From assembly GCA_902500745.1 (NCBI GenBank), contig CABVRS010000004.1, positions 1 through 64,000 on the forward strand: a DNA stretch of 64,000 nucleotides, given 5' to 3'. The translations under genes were made by a program, and so were the position numbers. The notes below the pieces were generated by a model. The model ran no database searches and had not been told where the DNA came from. It saw only the letters and a list, made by a program, of their open reading frames with translations. Below are positions 26,048-27,752 of this stretch, piece after piece. Numbering within the stretch: position 1 is the first letter of the stretch; each line of letters starts with the position of its first letter. This DNA is from an uncultured Nitrospira sp. Lineage in GTDB: Bacteria > Nitrospirota > Nitrospiria > Nitrospirales > Nitrospiraceae.

Positions 26048-26077
26048 TTGACTCCACTTCCTTTCTGTGTTCATATT
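26048..26077 (+). promoter_or_regulatory. Possible sigma70 promoter for the island's first regulator
   Basis: TTGACT at 26048-26053 (5 of 6 to -35), an 18-base spacer and CATATT at 26072-26077 (4 of 6 to -10). It lies about 30 bases before ATG 26108. Moderate match only. Confidence 0.35.
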
Positions 26078-26107
26078 CTGAACGAAAGAGAGATTGGCCA
26101 TAACTGT

Positions 26108-26695
26108 ATGAATCTTCAGGGCCAACGCGACCTTCTTTTACTTACCGAGGTAGAGCGAGATGGGGCCGTTACCCAACGATCTCTCGCGACAAAACTCGGA
26201 GTTGCGCTCGGTCTGACCAATCTCTACCTCAAGCGTCTTGCTCGAAAAGGGTACATTAAAATCACCACCATCCCTTCGCAGCGGATTCGATATTTGCTGA
26301 CGCCACAAGGGTTTACCGAAAAATCACGGCTCACGTATCTCTATATGCAGTACTCTCTCTCTCACTACCGAGACATGCGGGCGCGGCTTCGGGAAACGCT
26401 TTCTCTGGCGACACAAACCGGGATGAAACGAGTGGTGATTTATGGAACTGGAGAGTTAGCGGAGATGGCCTATCTCTCACTTCGGGAAATGCATTTGACG
26501 TTGGTCGGGTTCGTTGGTGATGGTCAACAGGAGTCGTTTTTATCCTATCCCGTATGGCAGCCAGAGGTCTTTGCCAAGTGGGAGTTTGATGCGGTGCTGT
26601 TGGCGGATATCGAACAGGCTTCGCAGCATCGAGAAGTACTGAGGCGCCAGCAGGTTCCTGACGCCAAAGTGCTCGTGCTAGGTCCGTCGGTCTAA
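26108..26695 (+). CDS. EPS-associated winged-helix (MarR-type) regulator with Rossmann-like C-terminus
   Basis: Predicted DNA-binding regulator of surface polysaccharide genes, 195 residues from ATG 26108 (a TTG at 26048 would add 20 residues that match nothing). Residues 8-75 form the winged helix seen in EPS-associated MarR-type regulators (VTQRSLATKLGVALG, then LYLKRLARKGYIKI and a wing). Residues 106-195 are a separate nucleotide-binding-like fold: RVVIYGTGELAEMAYLSL with a GxGxxA loop and LVGFVGDG, as in the N-terminal domain of PglD-type proteins. The second domain may sense a nucleotide-sugar or similar ligand. Its position at the head of the island supports local control. Confidence 0.75.
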   Translation: MNLQGQRDLLLLTEVERDGAVTQRSLATKLGVALGLTNLYLKRLARKGYIKITTIPSQRIRYLLTPQGFTEKSRLTYLYMQYSLSHYRDMRARLRETLSLATQTGMKRVVIYGTGELAEMAYLSLREMHLTLVGFVGDGQQESFLSYPVWQPEVFAKWEFDAVLLADIEQASQHREVLRRQQVPDAKVLVLGPSV

Positions 26696-26760
26696 GTGCT
26701 TGAAAAATAGCAGTGCTTTTTGTCTTCTGTAAGTGAGAGGGCGAAGCTGTGTCTGAAACG

Positions 26761-26846
26761 GTCTGTCTGGTTGAGAGAGGTCTATCTTGTCTATCTGGTA
26801 ACAGACGGACCAGATCGACGAGATAGACCAAATAGACCAGACGGAC
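26761..26846 (+). repeat. Long imperfect inverted repeat upstream of the four-helix-bundle gene
   Basis: Three nested arm pairs: 26761-26771 with 26836-26846 (10 of 11), GGTCTATCT at 26779-26787 with AGATAGACC at 26821-26829 (perfect), and ATCTGGT at 26793-26799 with ACCAGAT at 26809-26815 (perfect), with a 9-base apical loop. The RNA would fold into a long hairpin directly before the gene. The exact reverse complement of the outer left arm also occurs past the gene, at 27253-27263. Confidence 0.7.
26819..26830 (+). repeat. Direct repeat, left copy (flanks four-helix-bundle gene)
   Basis: CGAGATAGACCA occurs here and again at 27236-27247, bracketing the four-helix-bundle gene. In both places it is followed by a related GACCAGAC-rich stretch. 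Confidence 0.65.
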
Positions 26847-26853
26847 CACTATC

Positions 26854-27243
26854 ATGAAATTCACGCGTTTTGAAGATCTCGATTGCTGGAACGAAGCTCG
26901 GAAACTCACGCGGCAGATCTATGAAGCGATAAGTCGAAATCCGATCTGGCAACGTGATGTCAGACTGTGTGGGCAGATACAATCGGCATCTGTATCAGTG
27001 ATGTCGAATATCGCCGAAGGATTCGTCCGACATTCTGACAAGGAATTCGTGCAATTTCTGTTCATTGCTATGTCTTCCGCAGCGGAAGTCCAGAGTCATC
27101 TTTATGTCGCGATTGACCAAAAGTATCTTTCCCAAGAGAGCTTCGATGAGATTTATGCACAAGCGGAGAAGACCGGTAAGATCATCTCCGGACTCATCAA
27201 ATACCTCCGAACCAAGACGAAACAGACCGGACAAACGAGATAG
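26854..27243 (+). CDS. Four-helix bundle protein (23S rRNA intervening-sequence family)
   Basis: Small four-helix bundle protein of 129 residues, of the S23/TIGR02436 family first found in intervening sequences of spirochaete 23S rRNA and now seen scattered across bacterial chromosomes. Hallmarks are FEDLDCWNEARKLTRQIYE at the start, QIQSASVSVMSNIAEGFVR in the middle (the SIxxNIAEG core) and EVQSHLYVA. The molecular function is unknown. The gene is bracketed by repeats and its stop codon lies inside the right-hand copy, so it looks like an inserted cassette between the regulator and the antiterminator. Reading in the same direction and only 5 bases from upxY, it could still be co-transcribed. 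Confidence 0.9.
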   Translation: MKFTRFEDLDCWNEARKLTRQIYEAISRNPIWQRDVRLCGQIQSASVSVMSNIAEGFVRHSDKEFVQFLFIAMSSAAEVQSHLYVAIDQKYLSQESFDEIYAQAEKTGKIISGLIKYLRTKTKQTGQTR

Positions 27244-27247
27244 ACCA
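27236..27247 (+). repeat. Direct repeat, right copy (flanks four-helix-bundle gene)
   Basis: Second copy of CGAGATAGACCA. It spans the stop codon of the four-helix-bundle gene, and the related bases that follow encode the first residues of the antiterminator (MDQTDN). Confidence 0.65.
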
Positions 27248-27248
27248 G

Positions 27249-27752
27249 ATGGACCAGACAGACAATCTGCATTGGTATGCCCTACGTACGAAGTCTCGTC
27301 ATGAAAAATTGGTAAGGGATCAGCTTGAAAAACAGGGAATTGAGCCGTTGCTTCCGACAGTCAAGCGGTTGAGTCAATGGAAGGACCGAAAGAAGGAAAT
27401 CGAGGTCCCGTTGTTTTCCGGGTATTGTTTCGTTCGATTCTCTCAGCAGAAAAAGACACCAGTACAGAAAATCACGGGTGTCGTAGGAATCGTCGGCAGC
27501 GGAAGCCGACCTGAACCGATTCCGGAGCAAGAAATCGATGCGTTGCACCGCCTCATGGACAGCGTTCTTCCGTATGATCCGCACCCCTACCTCCATGAAG
27601 GAATGAACGTGGAAGTTGTTCGTGGCCCCTTGCAAGGAGTGCATGGAATTCTGCTGCGGAAGGAAAAACGGCATCGACTGGTATTGGGCGTTCGACTCAT
27701 TCAACAAGCCGCGGCGGTGGAGATCGATGTTAATGATGTGGTGCCGGTGTGA
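27249..27752 (+). CDS. NusG-like transcription antiterminator (UpxY/RfaH type)
   Basis: Specialised NusG paralogue of 167 residues, expected to bind RNA polymerase and let it read through long polysaccharide operons. The NGN domain begins WYALRTKSRHEKLVRDQL, followed by LLPTVKRLSQWKDRKKEIEVPLFSGYCFVRF, the pattern of UpxY/RfaH proteins. The C-terminal KOW-like segment is MNVEVVRGPLQGVHGILL. Its place right before the first exporter genes fits an operon-specific role. I see no E. coli-type ops element in the 190 bases downstream, so the recruitment signal, if any, is different. The N-terminal codons lie in the repeat that flanks the previous gene. Confidence 0.9.
   Translation: MDQTDNLHWYALRTKSRHEKLVRDQLEKQGIEPLLPTVKRLSQWKDRKKEIEVPLFSGYCFVRFSQQKKTPVQKITGVVGIVGSGSRPEPIPEQEIDALHRLMDSVLPYDPHPYLHEGMNVEVVRGPLQGVHGILLRKEKRHRLVLGVRLIQQAAAVEIDVNDVVPV

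Follow-up and report, generated by a model that had tools for sequence, protein, structure and literature searches.

In the window, by which we mean the whole analysed stretch of 64,000 nucleotides from an uncultured Nitrospira sp., a gene of 129 codons for an S23 protein, i.e., a four-helix bundle, is situated on the forward strand (26854..27243) between a MarR/EPS-type regulator gene (26048..26695) and a UpxY-type antiterminator gene (27249..27752), both in the same orientation, as are all features given below. The regulator gene, left neighbour of the cassette, matches PF13412 with 35.8 bits and scores 60.6 bits against TIGR04176 (MarR_EPS), under the cut-off of 88. The antiterminator reaches 122 bits with NF033644 (cut-off 100) and starts at an array-borne ATG at 27249. 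The S23 gene product belongs to its family according to both PF05635 (106.7 bits, cut-off 33.8) and TIGR02436 (104.2 bits, cut-off 24); its closest solved structure is 2gsc, XCC0516 of Xanthomonas (E 1.2e-10), and PADLOC assigned no family to it. Upstream of the S23 gene, a conserved element (26727..26752) with the core GCG[AG]AGCT contains the ancestral GTG start of the antiterminator (26749), from which a leader frame of 25 codons (26749..26826; translation VSETVCLVERGLSCLSGNRRTRSTR), a remnant of the ancestral antiterminator frame, runs to a stop inside a hairpin. The element, CTGTAAGTGAGAGGGCGAAGCTGTGT (26727-26752), occurs as a single copy in the window and is kept with small changes across relatives, its core being present in 42/42 regions; such conservation exceeds the needs of a ribosome site and might reflect a pause or antitermination element.

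The hairpin is built from repeat arrays. The 5′ arm (26760..26799; repeat families I1, I9, and I10) is an inverted array of about four 9-nt units, which is complementary to both right copies, the first 3′ arm R1 (26809..26847; families D1, I1, and I10) with GACCAGATA-like 9-nt units, for which the pairing is also predicted by the RNA fold, and the second 3′ arm R2 (27217..27263; families D1, D2, I3, and I9). Both array stretches of the cassette are built of the 9-nt unit (family D1, spacing 9). The nested inverted repeat that the first-pass annotation had described ahead of the S23 gene is indeed present and spans 26760-26847, its inner arms (26779-26799/26809-26829) being 90% and its outer arms (26760-26771/26836-26847) 92% complementary. 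Also present are the reported 12-base direct repeat on both sides of the gene (CGAGATAGACCA at 26819-26830 and 27236-27247) and the exact reverse complement of the outer arm, of which 11 bases (26761-26771) recur at 27253-27263. The right copy supplies, as had been claimed, the stop codon TAG of the S23 gene (27241-27243) and the ATG of the antiterminator (27249), both of which lie inside it. RNA folding predicts a single stem-loop for positions 26755-26853 (-55.9 kcal/mol, z -10.1), a stability equalled by 0/200 shuffles; in the predicted fold of the full 514-nt cassette the leader hairpin is present and no enclosing stem is formed around the gene by the arms. When a 13-mer of the unit was searched with up to 2 mismatches, the window gave eight matches, five of them at the locus; 1.26 matches are expected in total, and 0/100 shuffles reach 8.

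Comparison of 42 distinct regions corresponding to the window locus (the clean-site counts here and below refer to the best 30 loci per search) reveals 21 clean sites with a gap of 65-113 nt, 7 with a short and 14 with a long insert. Five of the short inserts are array-like by eye (L132, L136, L139, L146, and L152), and 13/14 long regions contain S23, the remaining one (L153) having a run of N. From the GTG of the conserved element the antiterminator is in frame in 18/21 clean sites, L105, L109, and L123 being the exceptions; this GTG is kept in 21/21 clean sites and altered in 12/21 inserted sites, namely in 7/7 with short and 5/14 with long inserts (Fisher p 5e-5, related genomes). A clean site that later received an insertion would be the simplest order of events, and the comparison indicates that the window cassette entered directly behind the ancestral GTG of the antiterminator, with the array providing a replacement ATG. 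As far as the antiterminator is concerned, whose expression the cassette may affect according to the first-pass annotation, what the sequence reveals is limited to a displaced original start and an array-borne ATG in its place. At this locus one genome possesses a tandem pair of S23 genes from different clades (L067 and L098; G019:C17). Judged by eye at two loci, array units seem similar to host sequence at clean sites, namely to the UpxY codons AACCAAACG (L099 and L095, EPS locus) and to the gene end GTGATAA; the target may seed the unit or be chosen by it.

Clean, array-only, and filled states are documented over four loci. At a second locus, whose neighbouring genes were identified by eye as glycosyltransferase-like and LAB_N-like, 4/30 of the best sites are filled and 26/30 clean. 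Among the best 30 sites of a trxB-thiI-type locus, inspection by eye distinguishes 5 with S23, 10 with array-only hairpins of varying units, 6 with one arm, and 9 others. For a VOC-type locus the best 30 comprise 11 with S23, 11 array-only (by eye; L318 of the own genome is one of these), and 7 clean sites, with L312 resembling a remnant. In the own genome a heptamer hairpin devoid of S23 lies behind a VOC-type gene (L318, G000:C13), and the trxB-thiI junction is occupied in L269, L279, L288, L292, and L293 by another kind of repeat-like insert, about 150-200 nt long. The first-pass annotation had proposed an insertion at this locus, to be contradicted by a gene conserved in place in all relatives, lacking copies elsewhere and leaving no empty sites; with 21/42 distinct regions clean, movement between species (see below), and other S23 cassettes in the own and related genomes, the insertion is upheld. 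Its further suggestion that the cassette spreads through the window repeat did not hold, as one exact form of the unit is confined to the locus, without a second hit elsewhere in the own genome (80% complete), and the other two S23 genes of this genome use different 7-nt units.

Within the cassette, DNA identity climbs relative to the flanks. Identities at four-fold sites of MarR, S23, and UpxY, respectively, are 27/91, 43/50, and 41/72 between the own genome (G000) and G006, 28/83, 38/50, and 22/62 between G000 and G029, and 22/70, 30/43, and 21/70 between G000 and G003. The reverse pattern is exhibited by G000 and G059 (59/102, 6/30, and 25/63), with G059 and G052 giving 32/88, 30/41, and 31/62, which means that hosts similar in MarR carry different cassettes at one site. 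Judged by synonymous sites, the cassette at the window locus has evidently moved horizontally. The second locus is filled in G016 and clean in G013 and G018, although identity in the neighbouring gene is 97-98%; between the cassettes of G016 and G057 identity amounts to 92%, against 82% for the flanks of G057. An S23 tree of 92 rows requires 24 locus changes, the minimum being 22, indicating that S23 copies mostly descend in place (the tree has few columns and many unresolved forks). Between different locus groups, a cross-arm score of at least 25 is reached by 0% of 793 pairs at 30-35% S23 identity and by 44% of the 82 pairs sharing at least 60%, which indicates that unit similarity between locus groups grows with S23 identity.

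One cassette (L081/L089) occurs at two loci, whose neighbouring genes are unrelated as judged by eye, and is bordered by terminal repeats GTAACTRCTCAGGT plus direct repeats of 8 and 11 bp; perhaps it is an S23 cassette borne by a transposon. The terminal repeat might be akin to an IS66-like end. Across the genomes G041, G069, G000, and G064, it forms a matching pair, with 0 or 1 mismatch, solely at both cassettes, the remaining six matches in these genomes not being above the reversed control. No direct-repeat target duplication exists at the window cassette, and such duplications are absent in 115/117 elements, L081 and L089 being the exceptions. A transposon with target duplications was therefore rejected as a general explanation, since duplications occur in 2/117 elements.

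The arrangement is not restricted to the window. Besides the window S23, the own genome (80% complete) encodes two further PF05635 genes, with inverted flanks of GTGATGG-like and GCTAATG-like 7-mers, and the family is present in 59/79 genomes of the genus with 201 matches in total. From these, 92, mostly the strongest, were taken; they represent 23 groups of related loci, and 90/92 were long enough for scoring of flanks and arrays. Similarity between the upstream and the inverted downstream flank lies above the 99th percentile of random window pairs in 73/90 genus loci, above their maximum in 54/90, and is not significant in 17/90. When flanks from two different loci are paired, the 99th percentile is 39, because loci share units. 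Tandem arrays exceed background on at least one side in 70/90 genus loci; a period of 7 or 14 prevails, the 9-nt period is typical of the window locus, and the unit sequence varies between loci. A scan of public genomes yielded at least 585 confirmed relatives, of which the best 80, distributed over many bacterial phyla and also archaea, were kept, 79 being scored for flanks and 73 included in an open reading frame (ORF) control. Inverted flanks at p<0.01 (shuffles preserving base composition only) are found in 60/79 of these best public loci and are not significant in 19/79. A flank score of at least 26 is attained by 61/87 S23 loci of the genus and 56/73 of the best public loci vs. 12/1156 and 8/176 ORFs of similar size, i.e., 70-77% vs. 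1-4.5%, in a control whose offsets are slightly unlike those of the S23 loci and which counts genomes as independent despite their kinship. In L025 (G043:C194) the S23 frame continues past the array as part of a frame of about 614 codons, and S23 may thus be fused to the next gene.

The arms belong together and have a fixed polarity. Within orthologous groups, the own arms beat the mean cross pair in 63/76 loci. The upstream arm contains more G than C in 61 genus loci vs. 2 with the opposite bias, in 56 vs. 3 of the best public loci, and in 19 vs. 1 when one genus locus per group is considered. Upstream arms are richer in stop than in anti-stop triplets in 47 vs. 14 genus loci and 44 vs. 10 of the best public loci, an excess that per locus group amounts to only 14 vs. 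6 (p 0.12). Both neighbouring genes are oriented as the S23 gene in 65/92 genus and 49/80 best public loci, and both are opposed in 3 and 3, respectively.

Array hairpins are also encountered in the absence of an S23 gene. In 1.2 Mb of the genome G064 (60 blocks, some picked for S23) there are 27 array hairpins, and none in the same sequence shuffled by 3-nt blocks; 4 of them contain S23, and 2/6 S23 genes of the blocks lie outside any detected hairpin. The unit AGTGCTG is common to 12 hairpins, 1 with and 11 without S23, GTCATTG to four (1 with and 3 without), and CGTTAAT to five, none of which contains S23 within the part examined. Blocks not picked for S23 harbour 14 hairpins in 1.0 Mb, unevenly distributed, the first 200 kb having none, and four S23-free genomes have 0 in 0.8 Mb. 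Of 21 hairpins inspected, 13 have predicted ORFs no farther than 30 nt away on each side. Across 79 genomes, CGTGAAG follows its cognate S23 clade: the median number of matches to CGTGAAGCGTGAAGCG (CGTGAAG) is 18 in 11 genomes with a typed cognate-clade S23, 2 in 48 genomes with other S23 genes (where counts rise up to 25 and some S23 genes are untyped), and 0 in 20 S23-free genomes (p 3e-6). AGTSCTG does so weakly and with counterexamples, the medians for AGTSCTGAGTSCTGAG (AGTSCTG) being 4, 1, and 2.5, respectively (p 0.08 vs. S23-free), and the S23-free genomes G053 and G012 holding 17 and 15 matches. Hairpin and unit counts treat genomes as independent, ignoring kinship.

Of the known systems, the intervening sequences (IVSs) of 23S rRNA genes resemble the window cassette in that a sense S23 gene lies inside inverted ends capable of forming a stem. 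In the IVS of Coxiella, two to three tandem GACAGAT heptamers precede the S23 frame, with an RNase III site at the first one; the patchy distribution of IVSs suggests horizontal transfer, and S23 proteins have no known function, according to the accessible part of the source (PMC4990558). In contrast to these IVSs, the window cassette is located between two protein genes and not in a 23S rRNA gene, and four 23S rRNA motifs (up to 3 mismatches) match 0/172 S23 loci. Two-sided arrays, varied units, and S23-less satellites, as seen here, are absent from the IVS description in that accessible part (PMC4990558). The 23S rRNA IVP is named in a figure legend only in the accessible part of another source (PMC10910872).

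The GGGAATC repeats of Xanthomonas and Nostoc are likewise heptamer arrays, often in convergent inverted pairs; for X. campestris 186 repeat sets were counted along with 70 convergent pairs, and the repeats are mainly intergenic, close to where the upstream gene ends (accessible text of PMC4692102). Unlike the S23 arrays, they are connected with no gene in that text, which has 0 occurrences of S23, helix bundle, and hypothetical protein (PMC4692102); S23 also has 0 occurrences in the accessible text on TAACTGA repeats (PMC4679880) and on Geobacter repeats (PMC2700814). By eye, the order accB-like/S23/accC-like occurs in Xanthomonas vasicola (L191), a Rhodanobacter (L196), and Luteimonas (L188), where inverted arrays of the GGGAATC, GGGATTC, and GTGATTG type flank S23, the first two types in X. 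vasicola and the Rhodanobacter. Their genomes hold 94, 68, and 79 matches to GGGAWTCGGGAWTCGG (overlaps counted) and 0 to the reversed pattern; consequently, the abundant unit of Luteimonas (GGGAATC) differs from the unit flanking its S23 gene.

In REP/RAYT systems one gene is flanked by repeats that exist in many further gene-less copies, and RAYT is a single-strand transposase. S23-bearing and S23-less hairpins of one unit in G064 may be comparable for other S23 cassettes, with CGTGAAG tracking its clade and AGTSCTG doing so weakly; for the window unit, the exact pattern gave no second match in the own genome. The cassette differs in encoding no Y1/HUH transposase, its sole gene being S23, a four-helix bundle without a nuclease domain according to Pfam. 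REP/REPIN repeats with a RAYT gene are the subject of PMC3116915. PF05635 resembles Avd of diversity-generating retroelements, which is essential to retrohoming (PMC10053308, accessible part); unlike in these retroelements, no reverse transcriptase was found with Pfam and NCBIfam among S23 and its four neighbours. From insertion sequences and MITEs the window cassette differs by its lack of target-site duplications. S23-coding IVSs and heptamer repeats are thus each known, and their junction, paired arrays, site states, and satellites, like any association of S23 with arrays, were not found in the literature searched, which was mainly open-access text without bioRxiv and provides weak evidence of absence.

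With the architecture, the three site states, the horizontal acquisition at one site, and the S23-less hairpins of the same unit as observations, the evidence leans towards the window element being an IVS-like mobile S23 cassette with satellites, one of a widespread class with inverted 7-9-nt arrays that resides mostly in sense orientation at gene junctions. For RNA cleavage, binding of S23 to arrays, and a part of S23 in movement, we infer the following course. In the transcript, the arrays would form stems that precede or enclose the S23 frame, much as in the IVSs of 23S rRNA, and RNase III would cut there; insertion within an operon might be tolerated because the array stems are cut in this way. 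The cassette would supply stop and start codons, and interrupted genes might therefore remain translated. S23 may bind its own array hairpin and aid the copying or homing of its own cassette and of S23-less hairpins of the same unit. Movement would employ host enzymes of replication or recombination, or else a reverse transcriptase, given that neither a nuclease nor anything else able to cut or join nucleic acid is encoded in the cassette. That it codes for no enzyme able to move it is the strongest objection to a role of S23. Further points against the preferred reading are the lack of an enclosing stem in the predicted whole-cassette fold, target duplications confined to 2/117 elements, the weak tracking by AGTSCTG, the differing abundant and flanking units in Luteimonas, the 2/6 S23 genes of G064 outside detected hairpins, and the loci lacking significant inverted flanks (17/90 and 19/79). 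In a broader proposal, which we put forward tentatively and with some doubt, S23 would be the trans-acting factor of a recombinase-less mobile class with inverted-array ends and a family-specific 7-9-nt unit, which would reach gene junctions by homing through hairpins of RNA or single-stranded DNA and would also mobilise satellites that share its unit and lack S23, with rRNA IVSs and orphan repeats such as GGGAATC as branches.

Alternatively, the arrays could be intergenic control hairpins of the host, serving mRNA processing, stability, or translational coupling, with S23 as an RNA-binding regulator and apparent mobility being allele exchange by homologous recombination. The sense bias, with both neighbours oriented as S23 in 65/92 and 49/80 (best public) loci, the 13/21 inspected hairpins no more than 30 nt from predicted ORFs on both sides, and the persistence of cassettes per locus (24 changes in the S23 tree, at least 22) would fit such a function. 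However, clean sites are common (21/42, 26/30, and 7/30, best 30 loci per search), and between G000 and G029 the cassette is more similar than both flanks, which are near-saturated at synonymous sites, so that a recombination tract would need to end at the arms; we regard this explanation as unlikely.

A less probable alternative still is that the cassettes are passive passengers, whose arrays grew by slippage and whose pieces were moved by recombination between arrays or inside other elements without involvement of S23. L081/L089, one cassette in two unrelated loci with transposon-like terminal and direct repeats, would be such a case, and array-only sites could provide homology for recombination. 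Yet 115/117 elements lack target duplications, four S23-free genomes have 0 hairpins in 0.8 Mb, and arrays that were passengers would not be expected to accompany a single gene family so regularly in different phyla. Slippage does generate tandem repeats, and inheritance of S23 copies is mostly in place, as it would be for an ordinary operon gene with end repeats born by chance or slippage and no element at all, but arm pairing within loci, fixed polarity, the ORF controls, which refute it in part, and cassette transfer without the flanks make this reading very improbable.

If the window element is a mobile S23 cassette of a widespread class, this design ties together several unexplained bacterial repeat families, and rRNA IVSs would become a special case of a class living mainly between protein genes. 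The regular association of gene and repeats across phyla makes the function of S23, and the cause of the catalogued heptamer repeats, testable.
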